This document shows positions 1,104 to 31,710 of a DNA stretch of 33,424 bases, one piece after another. Source of the DNA: Nitrososphaerota archaeon (GTDB taxonomy: Archaea; Thermoproteota; Nitrososphaeria; Nitrososphaerales; Nitrosopumilaceae). Within the stretch, counting starts at the first letter, position 1; the number at the start of each line of letters is the position of its first letter. Under the pieces are notes generated by a model. The model had not been told where the DNA came from and made no database searches. It worked only from the letters and a program-made list of their open reading frames with translations. The DNA lies in assembly GCA_028867615.1 (NCBI GenBank), contig JAGWGC010000005.1, positions 1 to 33,424 of the forward strand, read 5' to 3'. The position numbers were made by a program, and so were the translations under genes.

Positions 1104-1110
1104 ATAGAAA

Positions 1111-1833
1111 TTATTGGAGAGTAGAGTTTTCAATAAAGGTCACCAGATTATGGATGTGGAATGTTGGCGAAACACAGTTGCCTTTAACCCATCCTGTAGC
1201 ATTCGACCACATACCGCAGCCAAATCCGTCAGGAGGATGAGGGAGTTTGTGGTCCACTGTTTGTTTTATTGTTCTGTTATCTGCCCACCCTCTCTCAATT
1301 AGTTTTTGAGCAGTATCAGGTTTTACACAGAAAGAAGAACCGTCTTCTGCTTTCAATACGGATACAAATCCTGTGTTGCATACTGATTCGCCTGTAACCG
1401 TAATCGCAGGTTCTGTATTACATCCATTTAGCATACTAAATGCAGGTCCTATCTCTGGTAAGTTAAGTATGGGAGAGAGTTTGTAGGTTCCCGGTTGCAA
1501 TGCTTTGATTGTCATGGAAAATGGAACTCTTGAGAATTGTGTAACATTAATCATTTTCTCACTTGGTTCTGTTGACACCACAATCCATCTTGCATGTGGA
1601 GACGGACTTGAATGAATCGAAAGATATCCCTGTAAATCTTGTTGTACCATCATTGTGATATTTCCAGTTATTATGATTGTGTCTCCAGTTTGAACTGATT
1701 GGCTTGAAAAATGAACATCATCTAATCTTCCAAAACGCGGTGGTATTCCAGTACATACTCCATGTGCCGACGCTAAAGGTAACAATGGTGCGACTATTAG
1801 CCCAACAAGACATAATGAAAATAGAGTTTTCAA
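1111..1833 (-). CDS. Secreted AmoB-like domain protein with two-Cys domain
   Basis: 240 aa with a TTG start (MKTLFSL) and a signal peptide ending LASA before His24. Residues 24-148 follow the periplasmic cupredoxin-like part of archaeal AmoB as I remember it: mature N-terminal HGV, a VQTGDTI strand, a QQDLQGYLSI segment, FSMTIKALQPGTYKLS, LNLPEIGP and a closing TVTG. The AmoB copper ligands HVH correspond to K118-L-S120 here, so the mono-oxygenase copper site looks lost although the mature N-terminal His remains. Residues 150-184 are the two-Cys domain (Cys152, Cys169, RGWA), followed by a Cys-containing tail. The role is unknown: a binding or structural relative of AmoB outside the cell rather than an enzyme. 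The last codons (IENSTLQ) lie inside a DNA repeat shared with 4601-4632. Confidence 0.7.
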   Translation of the reverse strand: MKTLFSLCLVGLIVAPLLPLASAHGVCTGIPPRFGRLDDVHFSSQSVQTGDTIIITGNITMMVQQDLQGYLSIHSSPSPHARWIVVSTEPSEKMINVTQFSRVPFSMTIKALQPGTYKLSPILNLPEIGPAFSMLNGCNTEPAITVTGESVCNTGFVSVLKAEDGSSFCVKPDTAQKLIERGWADNRTIKQTVDHKLPHPPDGFGCGMWSNATGWVKGNCVSPTFHIHNLVTFIENSTLQ

Positions 1834-1856
1834 ACGATGTTAGTTATTCATTTTTC

Positions 1857-1964
1857 AAACTTTAAAAAACTGGCGTAGATTCTCTCAGTAAGATCCTTCC
1901 AGAACTAAGCCTACTGAATTCTCGAACAAATGTTTTTTAGTCAACTGCAATCCAGTGGTCTAAA
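1857..1964 (-). promoter_or_regulatory. Promoter module copy 2
   Basis: This is the promoter of the AmoB-like gene. The box CTACGCCA is at 1871-1878, TTTTTTAAA at 1861-1869, and the conserved 42-bp core at 1923-1964. The start codon is 45 nt from the box. Confidence 0.7.
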
Positions 1965-1973
1965 TACGAAATC

Positions 1974-3524
1974 CTATCCGTAGTGAGTTCCTTCAAATGC
2001 GTGTCCTGTATAGAGAGTATTACCAACTGTTATCACAACTGCACTATGCCACCAGAACTCAACATAGTATGATTTTCCCAATTGGGCTTGAGGCTTAGTA
2101 AAGATTTGATATGTCACTTTTACCACATGGTCATTTAGGTTTTCTACACTTGCAAGATTTAACAAAATATCACCAGAATCTCCAAGTGGTGGAATGCTTG
2201 TGTTTACTGAATTTTCGTCAACCTTCATTATATCTGGTGAGCCTATCAACTCAGATATGGTGGCGTTGGGTCTTGAAGGATATACATTTGAAATTACATC
2301 ACTTGTTGTAACTTTACAGTTACTTCCAGGATAAGGGTTAAAGTCATAAGTTAATGTTATTTTCCCAGCGGTTCCAGAATGTATTGCAAACTGTGTAATA
2401 CCGCCTATCATTCTGCTAATGTCTGCACCATAAAATGTGGTGCCATTTACAGGAAGATCATCTAGTACAAAACCATTTGTACCTACAATTGAAGACATTG
2501 TGTCAGTAATTCCACATGATTTGTTATCAAAATTTCTTTTCTCAGGTGTGTTTACTACAGTATCTCCAACTTTGTCATTCCAAGCCCACCACCCTTGTCT
2601 TGTCATCCTTCCCATGCCAGAATCAGTAACACATGCAGGTGAACCGTCTTCTGATTTTATTACAAGAGTGAATCCATCTGCGCATTTGACATTTGTTGCA
2701 GTTATTCCTGATTTGAATTGCTGTAGTGGAGATTCAGGGACGATCTGTGTGTTGTTTGTTCCCACTTTAAGATAAAGTGTTTCTACCCCACTGAGATGAT
2801 ATGCAAAAGGGTATTGATACATTTCAATTTTAGATGTGTAATTTCCAGACTCGGTATTTGCAGGAATTGTAAAATTAATGTTGAATTTGCCTCTGGCATC
2901 TGATGTAACCTCCTTTGTGATATTGAGTTGTTCTGCAGTAAAGTATACTTTTTCCACACCCAGATGTCTATTGCAAGCATCAACAAGTGTACCATTAAAG
3001 ATCACATCCTGTCCTGAACTGTAGATGCCTGTCTGAGGAATTCCTTTAAAGTATACCAAAGGAGATACTGCCATTCCAACAAATTCATTGACTATGGTGG
3101 CATTTTGTGAACCTTTTGGAATATCAAATGTTAAGGAGACTTCATCATTAGTGGTGGATGTTGTAAAGTTTTCGTGGTTGTTATCTACTCTCACATCAAA
3201 CGCACTACCGCTTTTTAGATAATTATCTACATCAGATCTTGTAACGCAAAAAACATTTGCCACTGCATCTTTTGTTAATGTTAAGGTCAAAGAACCATTG
3301 TATTGCTTGTTACTTGTTATATTCATATCAAGAGAATTATAAACGTAGGAGTGTAGGTTTGGGGATATTTTGTTGATACTTGAATTCTCAGTATTGAAAG
3401 TGATATCATATTGAGTATCATTAACACTAATTACTGATTTTGATATATCCGCAAATGCAATGTTAGGATATAACGTAATAGTAACTAAAATTACAATAAT
3501 TAAGAACTGCTGTAGAGTTTTCAT
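1974..3524 (-). CDS. Secreted Ig-like protein with central two-Cys domain
   Basis: 516 aa from the ATG of MKTLQQFLII. An ATG 21 nt upstream (3545) is possible, but the inner one fits the family start and the promoter spacing. The signal peptide ends NIAFA. Residues ~30-255 contain beta-rich Ig-like repeats, including an S-layer/adhesin-like stretch (GQDVIFNGTLVDACN, GKFNINFTIPANTESGNYTSKI). Residues ~266-313 are the two-Cys domain (PLQQFKSGI, VKC, GSPACV, QGWW). The C-terminal ~190 residues form a further secreted domain with two Cys (KSCG, SNCKV) ending FEGTHYG. There is no C-terminal membrane segment, so it is probably held on the envelope by other contacts. The function is unknown. Confidence 0.75.
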   Translation of the reverse strand: MKTLQQFLIIVILVTITLYPNIAFADISKSVISVNDTQYDITFNTENSSINKISPNLHSYVYNSLDMNITSNKQYNGSLTLTLTKDAVANVFCVTRSDVDNYLKSGSAFDVRVDNNHENFTTSTTNDEVSLTFDIPKGSQNATIVNEFVGMAVSPLVYFKGIPQTGIYSSGQDVIFNGTLVDACNRHLGVEKVYFTAEQLNITKEVTSDARGKFNINFTIPANTESGNYTSKIEMYQYPFAYHLSGVETLYLKVGTNNTQIVPESPLQQFKSGITATNVKCADGFTLVIKSEDGSPACVTDSGMGRMTRQGWWAWNDKVGDTVVNTPEKRNFDNKSCGITDTMSSIVGTNGFVLDDLPVNGTTFYGADISRMIGGITQFAIHSGTAGKITLTYDFNPYPGSNCKVTTSDVISNVYPSRPNATISELIGSPDIMKVDENSVNTSIPPLGDSGDILLNLASVENLNDHVVKVTYQIFTKPQAQLGKSYYVEFWWHSAVVITVGNTLYTGHAFEGTHYG

Positions 3525-3547
3525 TTGTTCTCGGTTATTTATCATAG

Positions 3548-3651
3548 CCTAAAAAAGTGGCGCATATTTTCATAGTATCTTCTCCCCAGATTGAGCCTAA
3601 TTGCGTTCTCGAACAAATGTTTTTTAGTCAACTGCTATCCAGTGGTCTAAA
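3548..3651 (-). promoter_or_regulatory. Promoter module copy 3
   Basis: ATGCGCCA box at 3558-3565, TTTTTTAGG at 3548-3556, 42-bp core at 3610-3651. The distance to the ATG at 3524 is 41 nt, supporting that start over the upstream ATG at 3545, which would lie inside the promoter. Confidence 0.65.
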
Positions 3652-3720
3652 CACTAATCGTTGTTAGGTTATTCACATAGAAACTAGTAAGTTTTTGTTT
3701 TCTTAACTCAGTCATTGTGA

Positions 3721-4470
3721 TTAATTACGATGTACTTGAGTCACATATTTTACATGAATTCCGCTTAAACCTGTAATTTGGAATACATTAGTCTGGGAAA
3801 AACATATGTCATTTTTGTAGAGCCATGGAAAATCATCCAAAATTATTCTCGATTGATTGTCATAACCCACTACAAATGGAATGCTATTACAAAAAAAGGA
3901 CACGCCGTAGAGCCCTGCCTGACTTCCAGTTTTAATGGTATATACTATTGTACTATTTCCCGTTGGAACGATATCAGGATATGTCGAAGTAGTGATTTCG
4001 CTTGCTTGCTGTTGCATATCTTTTGCGATAAAAACACTGATGCTAGGTTGCGTAGGAGAATCCGGATTATGATATGTTGCACAAATTTTCCCTGTTGAAT
4101 TAGGTGACATGTACAATACTGCTACACCGGTATTTGATTGAGGATAGGGATCATCACATGGTGCAGATGAGATGGTTGGTATGGTGTAAAGTGATGTCTG
4201 AGATACTTCCTTTGCCCAACCACGATGAATCAAGATGTATGCAGTATCAGGTTTGACACATGCAGGAGACCTATCTTCTGTTTTTGTTACAAGCCAGAAG
4301 CCCAAGTTACATTTTACATCACTTGTGGAATAACCCTCTTTAATCATCTTCAGTGGAGGTATCACCGTTGATGGTAGTGATTGTACTCCATGCCCTTCCA
4401 CATTTGATATCAACATCGAAGATATGCTAATTATCAGAATTGCTATTATTGAAAGATGCAGACTTTTCAA
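3721..4470 (-). CDS. Secreted protein with N-terminal two-Cys domain
   Basis: 249 aa, TTG start (MKSLHLSIIAILIISISS), signal peptide ending near NVEG. The mature protein starts HGVQSLPS, which recalls the AmoB-like start, but goes straight into the two-Cys domain at residues 39-87 (PPLKMIKEGYST, VKC, RSPACV, HRGWA). The rest (about 90-249) is a beta-rich extracellular domain with four further Cys and a SGIHVKYVTQVHRN end. The role is unknown. It belongs to the same tandem gene family as its neighbours and has its own promoter module. Confidence 0.7.
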   Translation of the reverse strand: MKSLHLSIIAILIISISSMLISNVEGHGVQSLPSTVIPPLKMIKEGYSTSDVKCNLGFWLVTKTEDRSPACVKPDTAYILIHRGWAKEVSQTSLYTIPTISSAPCDDPYPQSNTGVAVLYMSPNSTGKICATYHNPDSPTQPSISVFIAKDMQQQASEITTSTYPDIVPTGNSTIVYTIKTGSQAGLYGVSFFCNSIPFVVGYDNQSRIILDDFPWLYKNDICFSQTNVFQITGLSGIHVKYVTQVHRN

Positions 4471-4496
4471 AATATACTATCATTCACTTTTCAAAC

Positions 4497-4603
4497 TTTA
4501 AAAAAGTGGTGTAGATTTTCACAGTAAGATACTTTCAGAATTGAGCCTACTCATGCGTTCCCGAACAAATGTTTTTTAGTCAACTGCAATACGGTGGTCT
4601 AAA
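4497..4603 (-). promoter_or_regulatory. Promoter module copy 4
   Basis: CTACACCA box at 4507-4514, TTTTTTAAA at about 4497-4505, 42-bp core at 4562-4603. The repeat continues to 4632 with the same 32 bp that are found at 1101-1132. Confidence 0.7.
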
Positions 4604-4634
4604 ATAGAAATTATTGGAGAGTAGAGTTTTCATT
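4601..4634 (-). pseudogene. Vestigial gene start (MKTLLSNN) downstream of the 4641 gene
   Basis: Six nt after the stop of the 4641-5093 gene the minus strand reads ATGAAAACTCTACTCTCC, the hallmark start of this surface-protein family, but runs to a stop after 17 codons inside promoter module 4. Operon genes elsewhere in the window have the same few-nt spacing. It is best read as the stump of a deleted gene, with weak evidence. Confidence 0.35.
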
Positions 4635-4640
4635 TTCTTG

Positions 4641-5093
4641 TTATTTGACATTTTTCACGACCATCGGTCCTAGTTCATTCCCATGGCATTCATGGTCTTG
4701 CATAGTTGGATACCATGCATTTACAATCTTCTTGGTATGAAGATCAATCTCAACTCGTGCATTCCAACCCGTATCACATGAGTATGGAGTTTTAGCATCA
4801 GGGGGGAGATGAAACATGATAAATACGTATTTCCAATCAGTACCAGTTTTATTTGATATTCCACTAAAACCCATGGTAGAGAACTGCCATTGGTTTGACC
4901 ACGCTTGTATTCCAGTGATATTTAATGCCTCATCTACCAATTTCTGTTTTTCATCATCAGACATGACAAGTCCATTTGGAGGATGTATTTTGTCAATCCT
5001 TGACTTGGTGTTAAGAAATGGAGGTAGAAGTATAGTAGTTGTCATTGTACATATTCCTACTCCAATAATTATTGCAAGATGCAGAGTTTTCAA
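4641..5093 (-). CDS. Membrane-anchored or secreted WSNxWQF-domain protein
   Basis: 150 aa, TTG start (MKTLHLAIII), with an N-terminal membrane segment at about residues 5-28 that may be an anchor. The mature domain has the pattern VDEALNITGIQAWSNQWQF, WKYVFIMF, PYSCDTGWNARVEIDLHTKKIV, AWYPTMQDHEC. The same domain occurs in the middle of the plus-strand protein at 11253-12587 (WSNDWQF, PCDSNNNWSAMVIIDRTT, ATYPTVESHNC). The paired Cys suggest a disulfide outside the cell. The enzymatic or binding role is unknown. It lacks the PLQQFKSG domain, so it may be the unfused form. Confidence 0.65.
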   Translation of the reverse strand: MKTLHLAIIIGVGICTMTTTILLPPFLNTKSRIDKIHPPNGLVMSDDEKQKLVDEALNITGIQAWSNQWQFSTMGFSGISNKTGTDWKYVFIMFHLPPDAKTPYSCDTGWNARVEIDLHTKKIVNAWYPTMQDHECHGNELGPMVVKNVK

Positions 5094-5118
5094 AATATAC
5101 TATTACTCACTTTTCAAA

Positions 5119-5223
5119 CTTTAAAAAACTGGCGTATATTTTCATAGTAAGATTCCAAATTCAAGCCTACTAGCGTATTCCTGAACAAATGTTTTTTAGT
5201 CAACTGCAATACGGTGGTCTAAA
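5119..5223 (-). promoter_or_regulatory. Promoter module copy 5
   Basis: ATACGCCA box at 5130-5137, T-run/TATA at 5121-5128, 42-bp core at 5182-5223. It drives the 4641-5093 gene and is back to back with the promoter of the next plus-strand gene. Confidence 0.7.
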
Positions 5224-5242
5224 TACGAATCTATTGGACAAA

Positions 5243-5262
5243 TCTACACCACATTTATTTTC
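5243..5262 (+). promoter_or_regulatory. Promoter of the 5283 gene
   Basis: CTACACCA (5244-5251) is followed by the TATA-like CATTTATTTT, 39 nt before the GTG start. This is the same box as in the minus-strand modules but without the 42-bp core. Confidence 0.5.
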
Positions 5263-5952: not shown

Positions 5953-7503
5953 GTGAAAATCATATATCTTGCAATGATAATGACGTTGAGTCTATCTGTC
6001 ACACTTCTGGTTACAACTCAGCATGCATTTGCAGACACCTGTTCTGCTAAATTGACATCATATAACGCACCACAATTTTACCTACTCTCAGACGAGGTTT
6101 TTGCTGGAACTGTACAACATATTGACAATACCACAAATCATCAGTGGAAAGTATACTTTACCGTAGACAAAATTTGGAGAGGCACAGTAGGCCAAAAACC
6201 ATTGATTGTAATGACAAATGACCTTCAAGGATGCGGATACTCCATAGTTCAGGGAGAAAAATATCTTGTCTATACAAACGGTTATCCACCTTTTTTTAAT
6301 ACTGTATGGAGCAAACCCTATGCAGACGCACAAGGCGACATTGCCATCATAGATGATCCAAAGTTCCAGTCTGATGAAAAGGCCCAGGAGGAGCTAAACA
6401 AAAAACTGGTGATTGCAAGGGATGCCATATCAAATCTTATGGGAAGCAAAATGGGGACCATACCATTTAATTCTGTAGGAGTTGACGTGATAAACTCTAC
6501 ACTTGACATTGGCATTGATTCTGCAAAAGCTGTCTTGTCTGAAGAAGCATATGAAAAGAAGATCAAAGATATTGTTGGTGATATACCGATAAAGATCACA
6601 TTTGGACAGATTGTTGCAGATGCACCTATTCTTGACACACTTGCAGCTAAAAACTCTGTATCAATATCATTGTCTCCACTACAACAGTTCAAGTCCGGAG
6701 TTTCTCCATTAAATGTCAAATGTTCTACAAACTATTCTCTTATAATAAAAAAAGAAGATGGTTCTCCTGCATGTGTGAAACTTGATGTTGCATACATGCT
6801 CATAAAAAGAGAGTGGGCTGTTAGCGAATCAGCATATCCTGGAGGAGATTCACAATTTGCACTAGACACAAATTCGACAATAATGCCTGCACACCTGCCG
6901 CGCAGCTCAGGTCTTCGAATTCCATACTATGAACCATCACGAGTCATAAATTACAGTGGCTTTGATGGGGTATACAATGAAACATTTCAGTTCCGTGGAA
7001 CGCAAAATGATTATGTGCTCAAGCCTGGAAGTACTGGAATTATAATATTCAAGCTTGAAGCAGTTTCAACAGAACAGCAAGGTCAGGATTATCCAATATC
7101 TCTTCCAAAATCTCTCAACCTGACAAACTATGCTGTATTCTATCATGAAATAACAAGTCTTGAGGATCTTTCAAAATATCCGGGAGTCACTTTTGACGAT
7201 GGTAGTTACGGTCACTTTAGGGCATGCTCCACAGGGCCTGCCGGCGAAGGTATGTGTATAGGAGGGCCATTTGGGGGGAATAATCCCATTGAAGCATTTG
7301 TGACAGACCATCCGGGAATAGACATTTTGTTTGAGCCGCCATCAGAGGTGTTGCCGCTTGGCATGAATGCAACATCACAGGTAGTTACAATGACGATAAC
7401 TGTAGATAGCGATGCACCAAGGGGTACATACTTGATAATACTGCCTTCTATTGGTGTTGATTCGTTTCTTCTAACTGTGGGCGACCAGCCATACCATGAG
7501 TGA
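5953..7503 (+). CDS. Secreted netrin/TIMP-like protein with two-Cys domain
   Basis: 516 aa from GTG (VKIIYLAMIM), signal peptide ending HAFA. The frame is open upstream to 5851, but promoter spacing and the signal peptide set this start. Residues ~30-126 resemble the NTR (TIMP/netrin) fold of bacterial and archaeal secreted proteins: early Cys30, SDEVFAGTV, FTVDKIWRGTVG, GCGYSIVQGEKYLVYT. Residues ~135-225 are charged and probably helical. Residues ~242-288 are the two-Cys domain (PLQQFKSGV, VKC, GSPACV, REWA). The C-terminal ~220 residues are Ig-like, with a strand pattern ending GTYLIILPSIGVDSFLLTV. It is first in a three-gene operon. The 104 bp coding for the two-Cys domain are almost identical to 12097-12200. 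Confidence 0.7.
   Translation: MKIIYLAMIMTLSLSVTLLVTTQHAFADTCSAKLTSYNAPQFYLLSDEVFAGTVQHIDNTTNHQWKVYFTVDKIWRGTVGQKPLIVMTNDLQGCGYSIVQGEKYLVYTNGYPPFFNTVWSKPYADAQGDIAIIDDPKFQSDEKAQEELNKKLVIARDAISNLMGSKMGTIPFNSVGVDVINSTLDIGIDSAKAVLSEEAYEKKIKDIVGDIPIKITFGQIVADAPILDTLAAKNSVSISLSPLQQFKSGVSPLNVKCSTNYSLIIKKEDGSPACVKLDVAYMLIKREWAVSESAYPGGDSQFALDTNSTIMPAHLPRSSGLRIPYYEPSRVINYSGFDGVYNETFQFRGTQNDYVLKPGSTGIIIFKLEAVSTEQQGQDYPISLPKSLNLTNYAVFYHEITSLEDLSKYPGVTFDDGSYGHFRACSTGPAGEGMCIGGPFGGNNPIEAFVTDHPGIDILFEPPSEVLPLGMNATSQVVTMTITVDSDAPRGTYLIILPSIGVDSFLLTVGDQPYHE
6674..6777 (+). repeat. Near-identical two-Cys domain DNA, copy A
   Basis: This 104-bp coding segment differs from 12097-12200 at only about four positions by eye. 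The sequences around the two copies are not alike. Confidence 0.85.
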
Positions 7504-7513
7504 TATTTCAGAA

Positions 7514-9157
7514 ATGAAAACTCTATACCTTTCAATAATTACCGGAACAGGAATTGCAAGTGTGATATCTTTTGCATTGATTGTAGTTATAATGCCGTCT
7601 TCTCTTGCTGATCAAGCAGGTCTGACAATAGGCGTTGAACAAAACGAAGTTGGTATTGGGGAACCAATCTCATTCTTTGTGGAAATTTCAAGTCCGTTGC
7701 AGAGTAGTGTTCATCCAACCGCAGTTATTGTGGATGAACAAAACAGAACGGTTTGGAGTGATGATGATTTACCTCCAAATGGGTATAAGGGCATGACAAA
7801 AGTGTACTATGTCCAAAGAGACAGTGAAAACGTACCCGTCATTAACCAAACTGGCAAGTACACACTAATTGTTACATTTGCAGACAAGAAAGCAAGCAAA
7901 GATCTTACAGTTACTGGAACAATTCAAGAAAACAACATGCTACATTACTATGGTGCGTATACAGGGATTGATAAAGAAAACACCGACATAGAAATTGTAG
8001 ACAAGTCATATTATCTTACAACTGTTCACAAAACTCCTTCAGACTTGACTGCACCAAATGATACTACAATACAATTTCATGGTGTTACATTTACATTTCC
8101 AGGATGCGGGCAGTGTCTTCCAATGCCGACTGTGTCAAATCCTTCATACAATGTAAATGTCCAATTCAATGACAAAACAAATGAGACTTTGGAAATTAGA
8201 GACAACCAGTGGTCTACCATAGGTCCTCCAATGGATTTTCATGAATATCTTGCAAATGGAACCAAAATATTTCCAAACGGGACTAGGGGTACATGGACAC
8301 CAAGATTCCATATGGATCCCATTGTCACAGTTTTTAGCAACCATGAACACCCACAGGCTGGAATCACGGTGACTCATGATTCAGTAAAATTTCTTGTAAG
8401 CGTAGAAAATAATTCATCACAGCAATATGCACAGCTTGGAAATACTGAAAATTCTACTTTATCTGAAAATCAATCCAAGGTATCTCAACTGGGGAATCAC
8501 TGGTATGGTGGAGGTGGACCTATGGTCACAATTATCTTGGATCCTCTTCAGCAGTTCAAGTCAGGAATTGCACTCAAAGATATCACATGTGCACCTGATT
8601 TTCATCTGGTCATAAAGGCAAAGAACCGTTCCCCCGCATGCGTAAAACCAGACGATGTTTCCAAATTAGTTGAAAGAGGATGGGCTGACAAACCAAACTC
8701 ATTGCAGGAAGAAATAGATTTTGCAAATGTATGCCTTGGCATGAATGATGCTTGCAATCATCGTTATGATGTAAAAAACAGTGATCCGTTTGGAATAACA
8801 GCATTGATAATTTATCACCCTCCCGATTTATGCCTTAATCCTACATCTCATAGCTCTCCAGCCAGCATGCCCAGTTGTCCTCCTAACAATTTCTATCTCA
8901 AAATAAACTCAAACTCTACTGCATATTTGTTGGGCTACAACGTTTGTGATGGAGAATCCTGTACCAAAAGTAATGACCTGTCAGTTTTATTACCAATCAA
9001 TGTCATTTCAAAACCTGATTATCAAATGATAGGATTACCTGTAGATTTACAATGGAAGTATGGGGATATAGTGCATATTCAACTGGAAGTCTCATCAACT
9101 ACTAATAATGAAACTGGACTGTTAGTAGATCTTGGAAATTCTACGATAGTACCTTAG
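7514..9157 (+). CDS. Secreted Ig-like protein with two-Cys domain
   Basis: 547 aa from the ATG of MKTLYLSIITGTGI, 10 nt after the previous stop; an upstream in-frame ATG at 7496 overlaps the previous gene and is less likely. The signal peptide ends SSLA. Residues ~30-130 form an Ig/MG2-like domain (VEQNEVGIGEPISFFVEI, GKYTLIVTFADKKASKDLTV). A middle domain contains a Cys pair (FPGCGQCLPM). Residues ~343-393 are the two-Cys domain (PLQQFKSGI, ITC, RSPACV, RGWA). The C-terminal part has many Cys (VCLGMNDACN, LCLNP, MPSCPP, VCDGESC), probably disulfide-rich. The function is unknown; it is an envelope or extracellular protein in an operon with similar ones. Confidence 0.7.
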   Translation: MKTLYLSIITGTGIASVISFALIVVIMPSSLADQAGLTIGVEQNEVGIGEPISFFVEISSPLQSSVHPTAVIVDEQNRTVWSDDDLPPNGYKGMTKVYYVQRDSENVPVINQTGKYTLIVTFADKKASKDLTVTGTIQENNMLHYYGAYTGIDKENTDIEIVDKSYYLTTVHKTPSDLTAPNDTTIQFHGVTFTFPGCGQCLPMPTVSNPSYNVNVQFNDKTNETLEIRDNQWSTIGPPMDFHEYLANGTKIFPNGTRGTWTPRFHMDPIVTVFSNHEHPQAGITVTHDSVKFLVSVENNSSQQYAQLGNTENSTLSENQSKVSQLGNHWYGGGGPMVTIILDPLQQFKSGIALKDITCAPDFHLVIKAKNRSPACVKPDDVSKLVERGWADKPNSLQEEIDFANVCLGMNDACNHRYDVKNSDPFGITALIIYHPPDLCLNPTSHSSPASMPSCPPNNFYLKINSNSTAYLLGYNVCDGESCTKSNDLSVLLPINVISKPDYQMIGLPVDLQWKYGDIVHIQLEVSSTTNNETGLLVDLGNSTIVP

Positions 9158-14687: not shown

Positions 14688-14776
14688 TAGAATTTAGTCA
14701 AAATGAAACGAGTTTACTGTTGCAAAAGTACATGATTGAAAAAATTTGAATGACAGATCATTACTAGAATGACAAG
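14688..14776 (+). repeat. Dispersed intergenic repeat, copy 1
   Basis: The first 62 bp (14688-14749) are identical to 31620-31681. The next 27 bp are similar (both end GCTAGAATGACAAG or ACTAGAATGACAAG). It has no coding potential in common frames. Confidence 0.8.
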
Positions 14777-19928: not shown

Positions 19929-19953
19929 TTTATACACGTACTGGACATGCATA

Positions 19954-19973
19954 GTTTAAAAAATTGGTGTAGA
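19954..19973 (-). promoter_or_regulatory. Promoter of the 19928-14842 operon
   Basis: On the minus strand, CTACACCA (19965-19972) followed by ATTTTTTAAAC. The start codon lies 44 nt from the box. It is the same promoter type as in the 1-11 kb cluster, which ties the two surface-protein groups together. Confidence 0.7.
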
Positions 19974-20207
19974 TTTGTTCTATTTGTTATTAGTCAATAC
20001 CTTTGATAGGTATTGTAATTTCAGTTTGAAACCCATTCAAGATTCCATTTAGAGGAATTGTTTAGTTGGTCTAAGTCCCTCATTTTCGAGTTCAATTTCG
20101 GTAAGACAGACTATTACAAGAATGATTTGTGGACTCGTGAATTGTTCAGTTAGTTTAGTTCTCTTAATTTCAGTGTCCAAAATATCACACCGTGAGTTAA
20201 GAATTTC

Positions 20208-23021: not shown

Positions 23022-23255
23022 TCAATACTCAAACTTATGTGATATAGTATGCATTTTTCTAAATAATTCATCCGATTTTTTCTTCAATTTAGGATCCATG
23101 GTCTTATTGGCTTCATCTTCAGCCTTTTCAAGCAGTTTTTGTGCTTGTTTTATCTTCCTTACAGCTTCAGGATCCCTTGTCTTTTCTGCTTTTAGTCGTG
23201 CCTTTACATATTCTCGTTGAGTATTTGCAATTTCATCCATTAAATCAGTATTCAT
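23022..23255 (-). CDS. Small charged coiled-coil protein
   Basis: 77 aa, ATG start (MNTDLMDEIANTQREY). Almost the whole chain is predicted helical and highly charged with heptad-like spacing (KARLKAEKTRDPEAVRKIKQAQKLLEKAEDEANK, then LKKKSDELFRKM). There are no Cys, no membrane segment and no known motif. It stands alone, convergent with the HEPN-like gene. The function is unknown. Confidence 0.55.
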   Translation of the reverse strand: MNTDLMDEIANTQREYVKARLKAEKTRDPEAVRKIKQAQKLLEKAEDEANKTMDPKLKKKSDELFRKMHTISHKFEY

Positions 23256-23409
23256 TAATTTAGTTTGAAAAATACAGTATAACCAAACCCATATTCAGAA
23301 AAGTAGACTATTTTGATCGTAATTGTATTAATTACATTAAGTGGTTGACTCTGGTACGTTCCACTAAAATACTGTTCTTATAAAATATCCATCATAGTTA
23401 GATACATCA

Positions 23410-23487
23410 ATGTCGTCCTTAAAACAAGAAAAACAAGAGAGAACAAATCATGGTGTTTCTGGTTTTGTTAATGTCATATACCGATAA
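23410..23487 (+). CDS. Possible 25-aa mini-ORF
   Basis: ATG 20-25 nt after a TATA-like CTTATAAAATAT (23377-23388). The product starts MSSLKQEKQERTNHG and ends in VNVIYR. It could be a tiny leaderless gene, a truncated gene start, or chance. Only the promoter spacing supports it. Confidence 0.2.
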   Translation: MSSLKQEKQERTNHGVSGFVNVIYR

Positions 23488-23573
23488 AATTTTAGGAGTT
23501 AACCAGTTTCAGCCAAATCTCTCAATTTTCTTTTAAAATGCTCTATTTTTTCATGCGAATTCATGTCTGTATC

Positions 23574-23615
23574 TGTTAATCTGTTAATATGATTAACAGT
23601 TAATGGAATTAACAG
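23574..23615 (+). repeat. 42-bp operator-like repeat, copy 1
   Basis: Two CTGTTAAT half-sites followed, after ATG, by two ATTAACAG half-sites (8-bp arms, the first CTGTTAAT at 23573). It ends exactly next to the stop codon of the minus-strand ATPase. It is identical over 42 bp to 24822-24863. Confidence 0.9.
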
Positions 23616-24704
23616 TTACTTTTGGTCCTCTTCCATTATTGCATGCTTTACATGTCGTACAGAAATCGTTTCTGCATCGTCACTTCTTGCTTTTTCTATG
23701 GAGTTACGACAAACCGGCATTAATTGTCGTAAAGACTCTTTTTCATAAAAAGAATAAAGATGGTCCATACAACTTTCATCCCATACATCATTTAATTTAA
23801 CTTGACCGCAAGCAGCCTTTGTTCTCTTTTCGATTATCATAGTCATTGCTTTTTGTGTAGTTATTGAAGGGATTTCCAAAGTCTTGGTAAAATATGGTTC
23901 CAGAATAGAACTTTTGAAAGATGCAGTATTGTATTGATTATTGAGGACAAATACGTAAGAACATTTTGTTTTTTCTAATTTGGAAATGGCATCCAGGAAA
24001 AATGTCTTTGCTTCATCACTAGAAATTTCAGTGGTTCCAGGTTTTCTTATTTTGTCAGTTTCATCCAACATGACCACAACATGTGTTATTCCAGCATTTT
24101 TTTGAAGTGATTCTACTAATTGATTTGTAAATACAATAAGTTCTTCCAAAGTGGTATCCTCTGTTATTTCTACTCCAGACTGTGATTCTAGTTCAGTACT
24201 AGCATCAATACTCATACCCAAAACCATGGGGATGACATTAAACCATGTCTTTAGTCCAGTCTTTGCGGTCTGTCTTTCTTCACTAGTATAGACATACTCT
24301 TTTGCAAGCATTTTTCTGGCCTGATTTTTTTCAGTTTCTCCTAGCTTGATAAATTGTGAAGACATTCTATGGATTTGTCTAATTATGTGTCTTAGTAGAT
24401 CTCTTGGCCCTGTTATGTCATCATAAAATTCATTAATTTTTATACAAAAAGTCTTACTTCCGGCAGAAGATAGTTCTGAGAGTAGATAATTTAGAACCGA
24501 ACTTTTACCAGATCCACTTTTCCCTAGTAGACCATAAAATTTTCCTATGGCCTGTTTCTTGAATTCAGTTAACAAAATCGTCTCAATTTGAGAATGATTC
24601 ATCAATTGATCAAAAGGCACATAAAAATATTGGATATCTTCAAGCGGAATGCCCGTCTTACCTGAAAAGGGATCAAAATGATATAATTTCTCAACATTGT
24701 TCAT
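23616..24704 (-). CDS. AAA+ ATPase (ORC/STAND-like), first of pair
   Basis: 362 aa, ATG start. Residues 57-69 hold Walker A (YGLLGKSGSGKSS, Lys67), residues 209-217 Walker B (VVVMLDETD, Asp214-Glu215), and a sensor-like FVLNNQ lies near 257. The fold resembles the Orc1/Cdc6 and STAND group rather than hexameric proteases. Residues 120-200 form a long insert with helical parts. The C-terminal ~80 residues are helical (VWDESCMDHLYSFYEKES, VRHVKHAIMEE), a possible lid without an obvious winged helix. The LDETDK box is like LDDSDK in the neighbour at 24851, so they are likely relatives. It is divergent from that gene, with 146 bp between them. It may be a sensor or switch in a defence system; this is unproven. 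Confidence 0.75.
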   Translation of the reverse strand: MNNVEKLYHFDPFSGKTGIPLEDIQYFYVPFDQLMNHSQIETILLTEFKKQAIGKFYGLLGKSGSGKSSVLNYLLSELSSAGSKTFCIKINEFYDDITGPRDLLRHIIRQIHRMSSQFIKLGETEKNQARKMLAKEYVYTSEERQTAKTGLKTWFNVIPMVLGMSIDASTELESQSGVEITEDTTLEELIVFTNQLVESLQKNAGITHVVVMLDETDKIRKPGTTEISSDEAKTFFLDAISKLEKTKCSYVFVLNNQYNTASFKSSILEPYFTKTLEIPSITTQKAMTMIIEKRTKAACGQVKLNDVWDESCMDHLYSFYEKESLRQLMPVCRNSIEKARSDDAETISVRHVKHAIMEEDQK

Positions 24705-24850
24705 TTTCGATAATCACTGATTGACTCTAGAAACAAAGATTCACTTGCATTGAGTTAAGTGTTTTTTACGTGATTTTGTTATTCTTGGTGTGTTTTCTTA
24801 AAATTTGGAATAAGCCTTATATGTTAATCTGTTAATATGATTAACAGTTA
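24705..24850. promoter_or_regulatory. Divergent promoter region of the two ATPase genes
   Basis: It contains a TATA-like CCTTATATG (24816-24823) about 28-30 nt before the ATG of the plus gene and directly beside the 42-bp repeat. The minus-side TATA is less clear; TTAACTC-like sequence around 24755-24765 is a candidate. Confidence 0.45.
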
Positions 24851-24863
24851 ATGGAATTAACAG
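24822..24863 (+). repeat. 42-bp operator-like repeat, copy 2, over the ATPase start codon
   Basis: Identical to 23574-23615. The palindrome CTGTTAAT-ATG-ATTAACAG (24829-24847) is followed by a second ATTAACAG, and the real ATG of the ATPase (24851) lies inside. It lies just downstream of the TATA, so a bound protein should block transcription. Confidence 0.85.
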
Positions 24864-26035
24864 ATAATAGTAATAACACAGTCAAAATCGCACTATTACG
24901 GACATTCACATCTAGACCTCTTCTAAGCTTGGAAGATGATAAACGCTATTTCACTGATTTTGAAGATGAAACACAGAAGATCTTACTTACTATCAATACC
25001 AATGAAAATGCGTTAATCATAGGAGACAGAGGTAGTGGTAAAACGTCTCTTTTTAACCACATAATCTACCATCTTAAAAAGAATAACGAAACAGTGCCGA
25101 TACGAATGAATGCTCTAAGAATGGAAAAATTTGATCAGACATCATTTCTTTCCGATTTGCTTTTTGAGTTGGTAGATGTAATGAACAAGTATGAATCTCA
25201 TACAGACAAATTCAAAAAAACTCTTGTAAAAATGGCTGAAAGCGGTCTATTGGGGTTGCCTGGTACAAACATACCCAATACAACGGGATCTAAACTAAAC
25301 TATGATTTCAGTAGGAAAGACGATGTTGATACTCTTTTAAATCGACTCTCTACTTTGGTGAACTCCCTTCGAAAACAAGGAATCACTCTATGTATTCTAT
25401 TAGATGATTCAGACAAGATAGGTTCTGATGTGATTTGGAGTACATTTCGTGGAATACGAGACAGCTTATGGGAATTACGAATTTCCATCATAATGACAGT
25501 CTTACCAAATCAGGTTTCTGAAATTACAAAACCTCCATTAGATCATTTTTTCCAATATTGGATAAAATTAAAACCATTTGATAAAATAAAAACAAAAGAA
25601 TTTTTAAAGAAAAGACTCACAGATTCAGGAATTCTTGTAGAAGTAGAGGATGATGCAGTTGACAGAATTGTTGAAAAAACCAAGGGTAATCCAAGAAGTC
25701 TTGCAGAAATATTCAAATATATTTTTGAAAATAATCCATCATTAAAAATTATAACTAAAGAGCAAGTAGAAAATTTTGGTATACCATATCCACCATCTTT
25801 TTCAGATATTGAAAGGGCTGTATTCAATTATTTAATTCACAAGCCATATACGTCAGCATCATCAGAAGATTTTGTAAAAAATATTGGAGTATCACGATCT
25901 AGAATAGCACAGATCCTCAACGAATTGAAAGATAAACAACTTATAGCATCAAAAAAAGAGGGTAAAAAAGTTCAATATTTCATTACTTCCAAGGGTGTAT
26001 TGAAACGTCAGGAATTAGATCGAAAAGACTCCTAA
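24851..26035 (+). CDS. AAA+ ATPase with C-terminal winged helix (ORC/Cdc6-like)
   Basis: 394 aa, ATG inside the 42-bp repeat. Walker A GDRGSGKT at 58-65 (Lys64), Walker B LCILLDDSDKI at 180-190 (Asp185), a sensor-type IIMTVLPN near 213-220 and a sensor-2-like KGNPRSLAEI at 278-287 (Arg282). Residues ~318-385 are a winged helix (SSEDFVKNIGVSRSRIAQILNELKDKQLIASKKEGKKVQYFITSKG). The layout is that of archaeal Orc1/Cdc6 or AAA_16/STAND DNA-binding ATPases. It may bind the CTGTTAAT repeats and so repress itself, or use them as a replication, partition or sensing site. Its 3' end converges on the nuclease gene of the ubiquitin-like operon, 42 bp away. Confidence 0.8.
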   Translation: MELTDNSNNTVKIALLRTFTSRPLLSLEDDKRYFTDFEDETQKILLTINTNENALIIGDRGSGKTSLFNHIIYHLKKNNETVPIRMNALRMEKFDQTSFLSDLLFELVDVMNKYESHTDKFKKTLVKMAESGLLGLPGTNIPNTTGSKLNYDFSRKDDVDTLLNRLSTLVNSLRKQGITLCILLDDSDKIGSDVIWSTFRGIRDSLWELRISIIMTVLPNQVSEITKPPLDHFFQYWIKLKPFDKIKTKEFLKKRLTDSGILVEVEDDAVDRIVEKTKGNPRSLAEIFKYIFENNPSLKIITKEQVENFGIPYPPSFSDIERAVFNYLIHKPYTSASSEDFVKNIGVSRSRIAQILNELKDKQLIASKKEGKKVQYFITSKGVLKRQELDRKDS

Positions 26036-26077: not shown

Positions 26078-26674
26078 CTACTTTTCAAATTCAATCCATG
26101 CAGATTCTATTATATTTGAAAGCGTATCTACTGTAATTTCCGTCATATGTGCTCTTTCCACAATATATGATCGTCTAGTCTTACCACCATAATTGTGATC
26201 AATCATACTATTTTCTACATGTGGAATTGCATGTCTATTCCATTCAGACATTTCAAAGATCCATACTGCATCGGAATCAATCATAAATTTAGTGTCATCA
26301 ATCCCGATTACATACAGATAGCATTTTCCATTTTCGTTTAGTTTTTTGTGAAGATTTTCATATGCAATCATCTGAGCTACAGGTATACGAATTCTATCAT
26401 CACTAAATGATTTGATTTCAAGAATGATGAATTTTCCTTTATGTTCTACTAACCAGTCAACATCTGTTCCACCAGATGTTTTCATACCTTCAATTATTAT
26501 ATTCCCGAGAATTTCTCTACTCTTTGTAAACTCAGCAGGATTTCCAATAATGTGTTTTGCTTTTCGCTGCTTAATTTTTTCTTGAAGTAAAGGATCGAAA
26601 TTATCTTTTCTTGTTTTCTTTGGTATTGCTTTATTCCATATGTCTCCTAAATTATGTTCTACATCTTTAGACAA
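26078..26674 (-). CDS. PD-(D/E)XK nuclease associated with Ubl operon
   Basis: 198 aa, TTG start (LSKDVEHNLG). Restriction-like core: a helix with Glu48 (NPAEFTKSREILGN), then GGTDVDWLVEHKGKFIILEIKSF with Asp73 and Glu86-x-Lys88, and a following helix with Gln101 (VAQMIAYENLHKKL) as in Mrr/HJR-type nucleases. The C-terminal ~80 residues (VIGIDDTKFMIDSDAVWIFEMSEWNRHAIPHVENS) are extra and family-unknown. It lies 48 bp after the E1 stop on the same strand, so it is probably the last gene of the Ubl operon. In defence systems such a nuclease is often the effector; here it may instead be an accessory. The metal-site residues appear intact. Confidence 0.75.
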   Translation of the reverse strand: MSKDVEHNLGDIWNKAIPKKTRKDNFDPLLQEKIKQRKAKHIIGNPAEFTKSREILGNIIIEGMKTSGGTDVDWLVEHKGKFIILEIKSFSDDRIRIPVAQMIAYENLHKKLNENGKCYLYVIGIDDTKFMIDSDAVWIFEMSEWNRHAIPHVENSMIDHNYGGKTRRSYIVERAHMTEITVDTLSNIIESAWIEFEK

Positions 26675-26722: not shown

Positions 26723-28306
26723 TCAATTCCAACACGATGCGTGAACCATTCGCGGTGAGGGATTGCCTAAGTTACACAAACAATTTTCGTTTGGTTTGGT
26801 AATACGTGTATACCCAGAATTATTCCAGAAATTAAAGACAAAATCTGTATAGGGATTACAATTTAAAATGGTTTGAAAACCCGAAGTAAGTTTGGATTTT
26901 ATTAATTCTGCAGCAAGCATAAAACCACTCATGGCAGAAACAAAACTAACTGATGCCTGTGTCTGAGTTTTAATTTTTGCAAATTTTTGTATTGATTCAT
27001 TTCCTAACGTGCCACATTTTGGGTCTTCTAGATATTGTAACAATTGTTTGGTATCTATACCAGCTTTTATGGACTCTTGACGAATATCTTCAGATCCTAA
27101 TGATTTTAATCGTTTGATAACGTCTTCATCTGTTTCTGATTCTAAACTAATTGGATTGTGACACTTCAAACATTGCGTATTGCGAATAAGATCATAAAAT
27201 GATGTTTGAATCCCCATCTCATATGTGCTGCCACCATGGATGAATTTTGGTAGCTGATCTTGTATTGCATGTCGTGCCAGATTCGTGTCTACACAAGATA
27301 AAATATGACCATATGAATCTGCATTTTTATTAACATAATCTTCAAAACTTTCATCAAATCCAATGGCAGAAATTGATGGTTTTTTGTGATTCATTATACT
27401 CGCAAGTAAATTTCCTTTTTGTTTATTTTTGTCCATATTGGAAGCCATTATGTACCTATTCAGGTTAGTATCGTCAATAACTTCCAATTCCCCATTTTCA
27501 TTTGAGTTTCTATCTATGATTATCAATTCTCCTGTGATGCCAGGAGTAGAATAGAGGCTATGACATACTGAATGTGCCACTGCACCAGCTCCAACTACAT
27601 ATAATTTTCCGATTTCCACATGCTGAGGAAATGATGGATTGCTTGCGACGGTATATTCTTCACCATCAATTTCTTTTACTGAAAAATCATATGATGAAAA
27701 ACATAACTTTGAAGCGTAAGTCCCATGTTTTTCCGTAATTCCTCCAATGAATTTGAAAATATCTCCTACGGATATACAGGCTGCTGAAAATGCCCCAAAT
27801 GGGTTTATACTATTCGTTGATAATATACGAGGGTGCCAATTCTGTTTTCCTACGTATGCTAACCATTCATCGGATACTGCTCTTACTACAAATTTACTTG
27901 TAACGTCTGTTTCAGTATCATGCCCAAGTAAGATTATGGCATCATTTTCTTGTTCAAAATCAGAACGGGATGAAGTTATTACTTTACATTCTCGAGAGCA
28001 AATTTTTGCACACTCTGTAATTATGTCGTGTAGATAATAATCGTCATTTACGTTAACAAATGGAATAAAATTTGGTTTTGATAGATGTATGTTATGTGGA
28101 ATTACTAATTCTATCTGTTTCATTACTCCCTTTAATCGGACGGTTAGATTACATATCATCCAAAGCAATAATTGTCCTTCTCTAGTACTTGCACAATTTT
28201 CAGAGATTTTTACTCCTATTCTTCCTGAAGTTATAGGATTTCCAGGTAGTTTCTCTCTGAAAGGAGGTAATGTATGCCTCTCTCTAGAATCATTGGCGAT
28301 ATTCAA
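26723..28306 (-). CDS. E1-like (ThiF-fold) activating enzyme with degenerate N-terminal half
   Basis: 527 aa, TTG start overlapping the JAMM gene by 17 nt. The C-terminal half is an active adenylation domain: nucleotide loop VVGAGAVA 237-244, acidic Asp265 after strand 2 (LIIIDR), NLNRY 281-285, SCVDT 337-341, and zinc Cys (QCLKC 378-382; CLC 509-511). Cys431 (DPKCGTLG) is a candidate for the catalytic Cys. Residues 1-230 look like a degenerate copy of the fold: AIILLGHD strand, then NPFGAFSAACISVGDIFKFI, a helix typical of ThiF proteins, but no Gly-rich loop. This inactive-plus-active layout is as in eukaryotic E1 and Bil E1. It would adenylate the Ubl tail and pass it to the E2. The protein is in position D of the operon. 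Confidence 0.85.
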   Translation of the reverse strand: MNIANDSRERHTLPPFREKLPGNPITSGRIGVKISENCASTREGQLLLWMICNLTVRLKGVMKQIELVIPHNIHLSKPNFIPFVNVNDDYYLHDIITECAKICSRECKVITSSRSDFEQENDAIILLGHDTETDVTSKFVVRAVSDEWLAYVGKQNWHPRILSTNSINPFGAFSAACISVGDIFKFIGGITEKHGTYASKLCFSSYDFSVKEIDGEEYTVASNPSFPQHVEIGKLYVVGAGAVAHSVCHSLYSTPGITGELIIIDRNSNENGELEVIDDTNLNRYIMASNMDKNKQKGNLLASIMNHKKPSISAIGFDESFEDYVNKNADSYGHILSCVDTNLARHAIQDQLPKFIHGGSTYEMGIQTSFYDLIRNTQCLKCHNPISLESETDEDVIKRLKSLGSEDIRQESIKAGIDTKQLLQYLEDPKCGTLGNESIQKFAKIKTQTQASVSFVSAMSGFMLAAELIKSKLTSGFQTILNCNPYTDFVFNFWNNSGYTRITKPNENCLCNLGNPSPRMVHASCWN

Positions 28307-28868
28307 GATCCTCTACTCTAAAATCAACAAAGTCATCTATGATCACAATTCTTTTGGATTTAGCTTGATTATCTAGTATCACCCATTTAGTTTCCCAACA
28401 TTCGTGGACCGTTATGTCTTGTATATCATAAATTCCAATGTTTCCAAAGTGGGGCATTACAAGAGAAAGAAAGCCATTTCTCTTACTTATTGAATTTTCA
28501 TCATCATACCAGGAATGATTCCCACTGTCTCCAGGATGAGTATGAATTTGTGCAAGGCAAACCAATTCTCGAGCAGATAGCGTTTTACCTATTTTTGTTG
28601 ATTCATCTGCTGGTACTTCATAATTTCCTCCCGAATGAAATGCTTTGGGTATTACAATAGAAAGAACGACATCCGTCTTATCCTGATCATTTTCTTTACC
28701 ACACCAATATGCAACTGCTTCTTGATTTTTTTTCCAATAATATCTAAATGTCTTTTGTGTTTGTTCCAAGATATAGCTTGGAACGAGGAGCACTCTATTG
28801 CTATTACTTTTACTAACTATCTTATGACTGCCAAATGATTCATCATGTGTTTTATTTCTGAACTTCAT
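28290..28868 (-). CDS. JAMM/Mov34 metallo-isopeptidase (Ubl protease)
   Basis: 192 aa, ATG overlapping the E2 stop by 4 nt. The JAMM+ motif is complete: Glu50 (QEAVAYWCG), then IHTHPGDSGNHSWYDD with His109, His111, Ser119 and Asp122, which bind and activate zinc. Such enzymes cleave after the GG of ubiquitin-like proteins: here the likely job is to trim the two residues after GG of the Ubl and to remove it from targets. The N-terminal 25 residues are basic and unordered (MKFRNKTHDESFG). It lies between E2 and E1 genes as in Bil operons (position C). Confidence 0.9.
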   Translation of the reverse strand: MKFRNKTHDESFGSHKIVSKSNSNRVLLVPSYILEQTQKTFRYYWKKNQEAVAYWCGKENDQDKTDVVLSIVIPKAFHSGGNYEVPADESTKIGKTLSARELVCLAQIHTHPGDSGNHSWYDDENSISKRNGFLSLVMPHFGNIGIYDIQDITVHECWETKWVILDNQAKSKRIVIIDDFVDFRVEDLEYRQ

Positions 28869-29395
28869 GGTGCAGATCTACCTCCATAGTATGGTTTTCG
28901 TAACATTATTTGAAGGACAGTAAGTGTTGCTGCAAATGTGTGTTTTGTAGGATCCCATATTTGTTCAGGCGTTGGATTGTGATTTGATAAATAATATTCT
29001 AGAATCATGGAATTGCAAACCATTTGTCTTTGAGTCCCATCAGATAAAGAATAAGTTTGATGATATCCAATATCCATTCCAGGTGGCGCTTGTCCCTTGA
29101 CAGGTAACCATCTCAGATCTTTTGTAGCATCAAATATTTTTGTAACTGGATTTATGTATGTGACTCCAGGTGGATGAGTTCGATAATATGACATGTCTAA
29201 TTTTAAATGATAATCATCTAGCTTGACACTATTTTCATCTGTTGACCAAAGATCAATGTATAAAAGAAGATTATCAAAATCCGGAATCAGAATCCAATCA
29301 TACATCGATGGCAGATTCTGTTCAAGTATTTTTTGATAATCTTCTTTGAACTGGGCTCTGGCAAGATCTTGGTTTGTCTTTGCTATTTGTGACAT
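28865..29395 (-). CDS. E2-like ubiquitin-conjugating enzyme
   Basis: 176 aa, ATG 5 nt after the Ubl stop. E2 features in order: N-terminal helix (ARAQFKEDYQKIL), strand meander with MSYYRTHPPGVTYINP (the PPxxxF-like turn of E2s) at about 68-83, then Cys127 (RQMVCNSMILEYYLSN), WDPTKHTFAATLTVLQIMLRKPYYGGR at 147-173. The last part matches the W-x-P...T...L...LL..P end of E2s, so Cys127 is the probable thioester Cys. The HPN motif that precedes it in eukaryotic E2s is absent. Like the E2s in Bil systems it would take the Ubl from the E1 and pass it to a target. No RING-type E3 is present. Confidence 0.75.
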   Translation of the reverse strand: MSQIAKTNQDLARAQFKEDYQKILEQNLPSMYDWILIPDFDNLLLYIDLWSTDENSVKLDDYHLKLDMSYYRTHPPGVTYINPVTKIFDATKDLRWLPVKGQAPPGMDIGYHQTYSLSDGTQRQMVCNSMILEYYLSNHNPTPEQIWDPTKHTFAATLTVLQIMLRKPYYGGRSAP

Positions 29396-29400
29396 GCGGT

Positions 29401-29700
29401 TTACAGAGCTCCGCCTGACGGGGTTCTTATCTCGAATTTTGCTTCTTTACACTTGCTTTCTATGACTGATTCCACTGTCTTACTCATCTCACCTGTCATA
29501 GAAGTACCATTCAGACAGAAGTATTGATCAGTATCCTTCTTTGGTTCTCCAAGTTTTACATAAGCTTCATTAAATAATTCATGGAGTGTTGCATTCTTTG
29601 CTATCACAAACTTTACAGTTCTACCTGTGCCTGAATATACGACTGATACTTCCACATTATGGTGTTCATGATGTTCGTGTTTCTCATTTTCTTTTTCCAA
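29401..29700 (-). CDS. Ubiquitin-like protein with C-terminal GGAL
   Basis: 99 aa from the TTG of MEKENEKHEHHEHH; a GTG 9 nt upstream (29709) lies within the ribosome-binding site and is unlikely. The His/Glu-rich tail (HEHHEHH) is followed by a beta-grasp domain: VEVSVVYSGTGRTVKFVIAKNATLHELFNEAYVKLG, YFCLNGTSM, EIRTPSGGAL. The chain ends GG plus Ala-Leu, so a protease must remove two residues to expose the GG for conjugation; the JAMM protein of the operon can do so. It resembles single-domain prokaryotic Ubls with E1/E2/JAMM neighbours (BilA-like). It is first of the conjugation genes. Confidence 0.85.
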   Translation of the reverse strand: MEKENEKHEHHEHHNVEVSVVYSGTGRTVKFVIAKNATLHELFNEAYVKLGEPKKDTDQYFCLNGTSMTGEMSKTVESVIESKCKEAKFEIRTPSGGAL

Positions 29701-29708
29701 CCTATTCA

Positions 29709-29714
29709 CCTCCT
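29709..29714 (-). promoter_or_regulatory. Strong ribosome-binding site of the Ubl gene
   Basis: AGGAGG on the minus strand, 8 nt before the TTG start. It decides the start codon. Most other gene heads in this window look leaderless, so this implies a transcript with a leader. Confidence 0.7.
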
Positions 29715-30115: not shown

Positions 30116-30865
30116 ATGTTAGAACAACTAAGAGATGTTTTGAAGGCACTAAAATGGCCAGATTATGATATTACTGTATATGCAACATTGGTGGAAAAGG
30201 GGGCAATGTCTCCTAAAGATCTAGTCTATGAAACAGATGTTCCATCGGGTCGTATTTATGACGTACTAAAATCATTGGAAAAAAGAGGGGCTCTCATAGA
30301 AATTGAGAGTAAACCAAAAATTTGTGATGCACAACATCCTAGAATGGTTTTGTCCGGAGAACTAGATGCCATAGAAAAAAAAGTTGACAAAGCGCTAGTA
30401 TCAGCAGAACAATCATGGGAGAAAAGAAGTAATACCATTGCAAACAATAATGAATCAGCATGGACAGTAAGAGGATCCAAAGGAATAGTTACACAACTAA
30501 GAGAACTCATGCAAAATATATCTGAATCTGTAATATTGTGTGATGATGACATAAATTGGCTTGGAAAAAGGGATTATAAGATTATCAGAAACATAATAAA
30601 AGCAAAAAAAGAAGTTAAAATTCTAAGCTCATCTGTTTTCTCTGAGGTATTGGAAGATCTTAGTAGCTATGGAATAGAAGTTAAAACAAAAGATAAGATC
30701 TCTACATGTTATATAATTGATAGAACAATTGTGTTACTCAAATTTGGAAATCCACCATCAGGAGTAGTTATTCGTAATAAGTCATTTGTAAAAAAAATTA
30801 TAGATGACTTCGAAAGAGATTTTAAGGCAGCAAAAAAAGTAACGGCGAAGGAACTTGTTAGTTAG
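30116..30865 (+). CDS. TrmB-family transcriptional regulator
   Basis: 249 aa, ATG start about 25 nt after TATA. Residues ~17-80 are the TrmB winged helix (DYDITVYATLVEKGAMSPKDLVYETDVPSGRIYDVLKSLEKRGALIE). Residues ~85-110 form the linking coiled coil (LDAIEKKVDKALVSAEQSWEKR). Residues ~117-235 are the PLD-like C-terminal effector domain typical of shorter TrmB proteins (WTVRGSKGIVTQLRELMQNISESVILCDDD). It lacks the sugar-binding C-terminal domain of the larger sugar-responsive TrmBs. It likely controls itself and the divergent membrane gene. It overlaps the next gene by 11 nt. Confidence 0.8.
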   Translation: MLEQLRDVLKALKWPDYDITVYATLVEKGAMSPKDLVYETDVPSGRIYDVLKSLEKRGALIEIESKPKICDAQHPRMVLSGELDAIEKKVDKALVSAEQSWEKRSNTIANNNESAWTVRGSKGIVTQLRELMQNISESVILCDDDINWLGKRDYKIIRNIIKAKKEVKILSSSVFSEVLEDLSSYGIEVKTKDKISTCYIIDRTIVLLKFGNPPSGVVIRNKSFVKKIIDDFERDFKAAKKVTAKELVS

Positions 30866-31313
30866 GCAAATTTTACCTTTGTTTGTGGCGTATGCCTCTG
30901 ATAAGGAACCAGTAGAAGGTAGAACAAGAATGCAGAAAATGCTGTTTCTTTTGCAACAAGAATACAAGTCATGTGACTTTCAATACAAATATCATGCATA
31001 TGATTATGGACCGTATTCATCTACCTTGCAAACAGATCTTGATGAATTGATTGATGAAGGCCTTTTAGAAGAGGAAGATCAAGCATTACCGAGTGGAAAA
31101 TACAAGTATAGATATTCAATCACTAAAAAGGGAATCAAACATGTTGAATCTGCATTATCAGATCCTAGAAACAAAAAACTTCAACTAAAGCAAATCTATC
31201 GGTCTAGTGAGAAAATAAAGGCATTTGCCAATAGCGCTAACCTTAATGATTTATTGAAGTACGTATATGCAAAATATCCGGAATATACTAAATTTAGTAT
31301 ATTTGAATTCTAA
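30855..31313 (+). CDS. YwgA/Panacea-like protein
   Basis: 152 aa, TTG start (LLVRQILPLFVAYA) overlapping the TrmB stop by 11 nt. The motif GRTRMQKMLFLLQQEYKSCDFQYKYHAYDYGPYSSTLQTDLDELIDEGLL is the pattern of YwgA and of the Panacea (DUF4065/SocA) group: an LQK-L helix and a YGPYS-L loop. In those families such proteins are helical regulators or antitoxins. The C-terminal half is helical with a winged-helix-like KYRYSITKKGIKHVE. Overlap with TrmB suggests co-translation. The precise role is unknown. Confidence 0.65.
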   Translation: MLVRQILPLFVAYASDKEPVEGRTRMQKMLFLLQQEYKSCDFQYKYHAYDYGPYSSTLQTDLDELIDEGLLEEEDQALPSGKYKYRYSITKKGIKHVESALSDPRNKKLQLKQIYRSSEKIKAFANSANLNDLLKYVYAKYPEYTKFSIFEF

Positions 31314-31619: not shown

Positions 31620-31710
31620 TAGAATTTAGTCAAAATGAAACGAGTTTACTGTTGCAAAAGTACATGATTGAAAAAATTTGATAGTGATAGGTCACTGCTA
31701 GAATGACAAG
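31620..31710 (+). repeat. Dispersed intergenic repeat, copy 2
   Basis: 31620-31681 is identical to 14688-14749. The tail to 31710 is similar. Confidence 0.8.

Follow-up and report, generated by a model that had tools for sequence, protein, structure and literature searches.

Why should one 42-bp sequence occur twice in the genome of a soil archaeon, once against the end of an ATPase gene and once over the start of another? The question is raised by a stretch of 33,424 nucleotides (hereafter the window), which is contig C203 of a genome of the genus Nitrosotalea (G000; 1.60 Mb in 247 contigs, 77% complete, such that further sites may be absent from the assembly). Our analysis suggests that the repeat is likely to be the operator array of the second gene, which would encode an autoregulated winged-helix AAA+ protein, and that the other copy arose later. 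The elements concerned are listed here in map order; G237 denotes a genome from a second genus in the family to which Nitrosotalea belongs.

23573..23615: copy 1 of the array, with palindromes at 23581-23599 and 23597-23615 and a left half-site at 23573-23580
23616..24704, minus strand: divergent partner AAA+ ATPase gene (362 aa), a distant homologue of the 24851 protein, absent from G237
24705..24850: intergenic region from which the two ATPase genes diverge
24815..24822, plus strand: putative TATA box of the winged-helix ATPase gene, a TATA-like element (CTTATATG) that is also conserved in G237
24821..24863: copy 2 of the array, putative operator, with palindromes at 24829-24847 and 24845-24863 and a left half-site at 24821-24828
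24851..26035, plus strand: gene for the 24851 protein (394 aa), an AAA+ ATPase of Pfam ATPase_2 with a predicted winged helix at its C-terminal end; probable binder of the arrays
25799..25990, plus strand: predicted winged-helix domain of the 24851 protein, approximately residues 317-380

Two arrays of half-sites at a divergent gene pair

An earlier note on this DNA had described identical 42-bp copies lying 1248 bp apart, and 23574-23615 is indeed the same as 24822-24863, with 1248 bp from start to start. Its placement of the copies also stands: copy 1 directly adjoins the minus-strand ATPase ORF 23616-24704 at its stop codon (23616-23618), and copy 2, which begins at the TATA-like element and runs to about codon five, contains the start codon (24851-24853) of the plus-strand winged-helix ATPase ORF. 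The remark that only the second copy has a TATA is fair (TATATG in copy 2 versus TATCTG in copy 1). The description of the repeat as one 42-bp palindrome has to be replaced, since each copy consists of two 19-bp palindromes and a flanking half-site. When extended to 49 bp (23570-23618 and 24818-24866), the copies are 96% identical and differ once near either end, beyond which the likeness ends sharply on both sides.

Each 19-bp palindrome has an 8-3-8 structure, CWGTTAAT-N3-ATTAACWG, in which a forward half-site (CTGTTAAT) and a reverse half-site (ATTAACAG) of 8 bp pair around a 3-bp centre. The two palindromes of a copy are offset by 16 bp and overlap by 3 bp, and the further half-site to the left of both is perfect in copy 1 and matches at 7/8 positions in copy 2. 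Forward half-sites are thus found at 23573, 23581 and 23597 (one mismatch) in copy 1, and at 24829, 24821 and 24845 (one mismatch in each of the last two) in copy 2; the reverse ones lie at 23592 and 23608, and at 24840 and 24856. Half-sites with two mismatches continue the 16-bp step at 23613 in copy 1 and at 24861/24872 in copy 2.

The repeat is not a product of chance, because the window holds eight matches to the palindrome pattern on both strands where 0.23 are expected, and the whole genome holds four exact matches to CWGTTAATNNNATTAACWG, all of them palindromes of the two copies, where about 0.008 are expected in 1.6 Mb. The next best site in the genome is a single one with 2 mismatches. 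A wider regulon built from sites with up to three mismatches was rejected, as there were 43 genome-wide against 53 in the backward control, and no match to an extended array pattern was found in viral contigs. The same arrangement occurs in a second metagenome-assembled genome (Candidatus Nitrosotalea sp. sed-bin190, the record from which the genus is taken), which makes an assembly artefact unlikely. That contig is 99.9% identical to ours across 27 kb and therefore does not represent a separate lineage; we rejected it as independent confirmation.

The winged-helix ATPase and its ortholog in another genus

The ATPase domain of the 24851 protein scores 41.0 bits against PF01637 (ATPase_2), above the gathering cut-off of 33.2. 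A winged-helix topology at its C-terminus is predicted by three means, namely a profile search, the secondary structure and a fold search: the profile hits are of TrmB and ArsR type and lie below curated cut-offs, the fold matches are NolR/SmtB and ArsR/MarR-like, and the structure model has a pLDDT of 70-84 in this region with a mean of 57 over the whole chain. Among 250 genomes of the family and 400 sampled from the order, the sole full-length ortholog outside this lineage is that of G237 (41% identity). Most other relatives in the order match the protein over parts only, at 23-38% identity, and none were found in the viral contigs, plasmids or phages searched.

The start of the G237 gene reads TTATATGTTAACTGTTAATTGGATTAACTGTTAATGCCGTCAACAGTTAAC and carries the same kind of array, with forward half-sites at 1285, 1301 and 1317 (two mismatches) and reverse ones at 1296 (one mismatch) and 1312 (two mismatches). 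The arrays of the two genomes agree in the 11 bp from forward to reverse half-site and in the 16-bp step, the first palindrome begins 22 bp before the ATG in both, and TATATGTTAA lies just upstream of the array in both. An exact match to CWGTTAATNNNATTAACWG occurs only once in the 1.9 Mb of G237, at the ortholog gene, against about 0.01 expected by chance in that genome. The first palindrome is the better conserved there, the second having two mismatches to the pattern. The array extends into codons with differing amino acids (MELTDN in the window, MPSTVN in G237), and the two orthologs have an identical stretch, VSRSRIAQIL, in the winged helix, which is expected if both read the same DNA.

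Judged from these sequences, the array is a conserved companion of the start of the 24851 gene, a conservation that rests on two points, as there is one independent ortholog in the genomes searched. No comparable array was seen at the starts of the weak ATPase homologues that we inspected, and in the loci of winged-helix proteins of about 215 aa from genus g27, which match the C-terminal part of the profile, the best palindrome matches have 3-5 mismatches. Neither a second array nor a partner ATPase gene was found in the 12 kb of G237 that were read. What copy 2 shares with G237 is the promoter element, the position and the register, which argues that it is the ancestral copy; copy 1 shares the array alone, and would most simply be a derived, extra copy.

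Possible roles of the two arrays

The earlier note had proposed an operator with a second binding site for looping. The operator half of the proposal is supported by the array being kept in register with the start codon of an orthologous gene in another genus. Inverted repeats cover the gene's own promoter and start, they are kept with the gene in G237 (one ortholog), and the encoded protein has a predicted DNA-binding domain, as in autoregulatory operators. The C-terminal winged helix would most likely bind the 8-3-8 palindromes as dimers every 16 bp, and dimers bound there would hinder transcription initiation such that the gene would presumably be repressed by its own product. Nucleotide state or oligomerisation would be a likely switch. 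The ligand of the arrays could also be another DNA-binding protein. Copy 1 would be a later duplicate at the far end of the partner ATPase gene, where the 24851 protein probably binds as well. It may bring the 23616-24704 gene under the control of that regulator, either through a roadblock at the 3' end of the gene or through a loop between the arrays. A role of copy 1 as terminator was rejected, as no bacterial-type intrinsic terminator was found in 23400-24900. Copy 1 may be a looping site, the scar of an insertion or a site of initiator type.

Operators on the regulator's own promoter are well known, in particular among autoregulated winged-helix repressors of the ArsR/SmtB, MarR and TrmB types. 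The array resembles theirs in having inverted half-sites between a TATA-like element and the start codon of a gene whose product has an ArsR/MarR-like fold. Less usual, and unlike these repressors, are the fusion of the winged helix to an AAA+ ATPase and the repetition of the array beyond a divergent partner ATPase gene. The inspected archaeal ATPase_2 relatives (PF01637), the family in which the ATPase domain scores above the Pfam cut-off, also differ in lacking a comparable array. The AbiEi/Rv2827c antitoxins likewise have inverted repeats in more than one set on their own promoter, and their autoregulation involves multiple inverted repeats and complex cooperativity (PMC7319586), but these are bacterial, lack an AAA+ domain and have their repeats confined to the promoter. 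If the operator reading holds, a defined DNA target would be available for a winged-helix AAA+ ATPase of archaea, and the site consensus, repeated every 16 bp, could be used to find more targets.

The partner ATPase is a distant homologue of the winged-helix ATPase (tblastn 3e-6 against the G237 protein, hhalign E 1.2e-7 against the 24851 protein). It has no winged helix that could be recognised, and inspection by eye of the three frames downstream of its gene showed no remnant of one. Its matches in the phylum sample are only weak, and no relatives were found in viral contigs or plasmids. Its structure model (pLDDT 35) was left unused. The partner gene might have arrived at the locus later, and copy 1 could then be the scar of the event: the gene and an array would have recombined at the existing operator, or duplicated it, leaving a direct repeat on both sides. 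This explanation, which the earlier note had raised as a trace of insertion, is a serious if tentative possibility and leaves the operator role of copy 2 untouched. The single array and missing partner gene of G237 mark copy 1 and the 23616-24704 gene as extra, a search of the 400 order genomes gave no match to the partner, and the likeness of the copies stops on both sides after 49 bp. Yet, no empty site was found in 37 genomes of the genus, because the neighbourhood is not syntenic; a search by way of the left neighbour gene (23022-23255) retrieved homologues in three genomes (G035, G017 and G031), in unrelated contexts. Moreover, no transposase or integrase was recognised in the segment, a duplication of 42-49 bp is long for a transposon target duplication, and boundaries that coincide with the array also fit a functional second site.

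The two arrays and the two ATPases might also form one module, in which the winged-helix ATPase would bind both arrays, assemble with its partner, in which no winged helix is recognised, and close a 1.25-kb loop around the partner gene. We regard this as doubtful; if true, it would be an AAA+ DNA switch of a kind not described in ammonia-oxidising archaea. Copy 1 lies next to the partner ATPase gene, with a Bil-like operon (described below) in the same neighbourhood, and would matter more if it linked the pair to defence or mobile DNA.

More improbable still is an origin or partition role, which the earlier note had listed and which we find possible but do not favour. The arrays would then serve initiation or partition by an ORC-like pair of AAA+ proteins, such as a former replicon or mobile element might have left behind. 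Like archaeal Orc1/Cdc6 initiators, the 24851 protein has an AAA+ domain followed by a winged helix, both ATPases have sub-threshold Orc1/Cdc6 profile matches, and the best fold match is to the heterodimer of Sulfolobus Cdc6/Orc1 proteins bound to origin DNA (E 2.5e-7, with a TM-score of 0.22 from a weak model). Integrated elements of Thaumarchaea can encode Orc1/Cdc6 homologues (PMC6563490). However, the 24851 protein scores 25.0 bits and the 23616 protein 41.6 bits against TIGR02928, far under the family cut-off of 181.3, and the match of the latter goes no further than profile position 272 of 366. The sites follow a promoter and start codon, the array being in register with the TATA-like element and the ATG in both genera. 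In addition, G237 has a single array, at the promoter, and such searches as were made of viral, plasmid and phage collections gave no relatives.

Least probable is an action of the array in RNA, where the second palindrome would fold at the transcript's 5' end, hiding the start codon: the TATA-like element at 24815-24822 would, with the usual archaeal spacing, place the transcript start near 24845 and so the second palindrome at the 5' end, but the better conserved first palindrome would then fall upstream of the transcript, the second has its two mismatches in G237, copy 1 is without a TATA-like element, and the window has no Rfam family.

Neighbourhood of the ATPase pair

Several other features of the window lie near the pair. 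Convergent with the 24851 gene is a minus-strand gene (26078-26674) whose product contains a GGTDVDWLVEHKGKFIILEIK stretch, matches Cas4 weakly (E 0.001) and might be a PD-(D/E)XK nuclease; many Nitrosotalea genomes have DNA similar to this gene. It is followed by an archaeal operon resembling the Bil (bacterial ISG15-like) conjugation operons (26723-29709, minus strand), with these members:

29401-29709: ubiquitin-like protein (BilA, E 0.005)
28865-29395: no assignment
28290-28868: JAB protein (BilC, E 6.6e-11)
26723-28306: ThiF protein (BilD, E 6.8e-7)

Perfect direct repeats of 62 bp (14688-14749 and 31620-31681) enclose about 17 kb, among them the ATPase pair and the Bil-like operon; each repeat is itself part of a longer stretch of similarity. 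In another genome (G028:C2, L080 at about 7153-9009), sequence like the left copy is joined directly to the right flank of these 17 kb, a possible empty site, with the caveat that only about 140 bp of the left side match and that related repeats are dispersed.

Elsewhere in the window, a promoter-like element, TTTAAAAAACTGGCGTAGATTT, is repeated at 969-5252 and 19950-19976; its copies measure 27-121 bp and mostly fall between ORFs. Finally, a plus-strand gene at 30855-31313 encodes a protein that resembles part of DarG and the PADLOC candidate PDC-M19A, and it adjoins a gene for a TrmB-type regulator (30116-30865).
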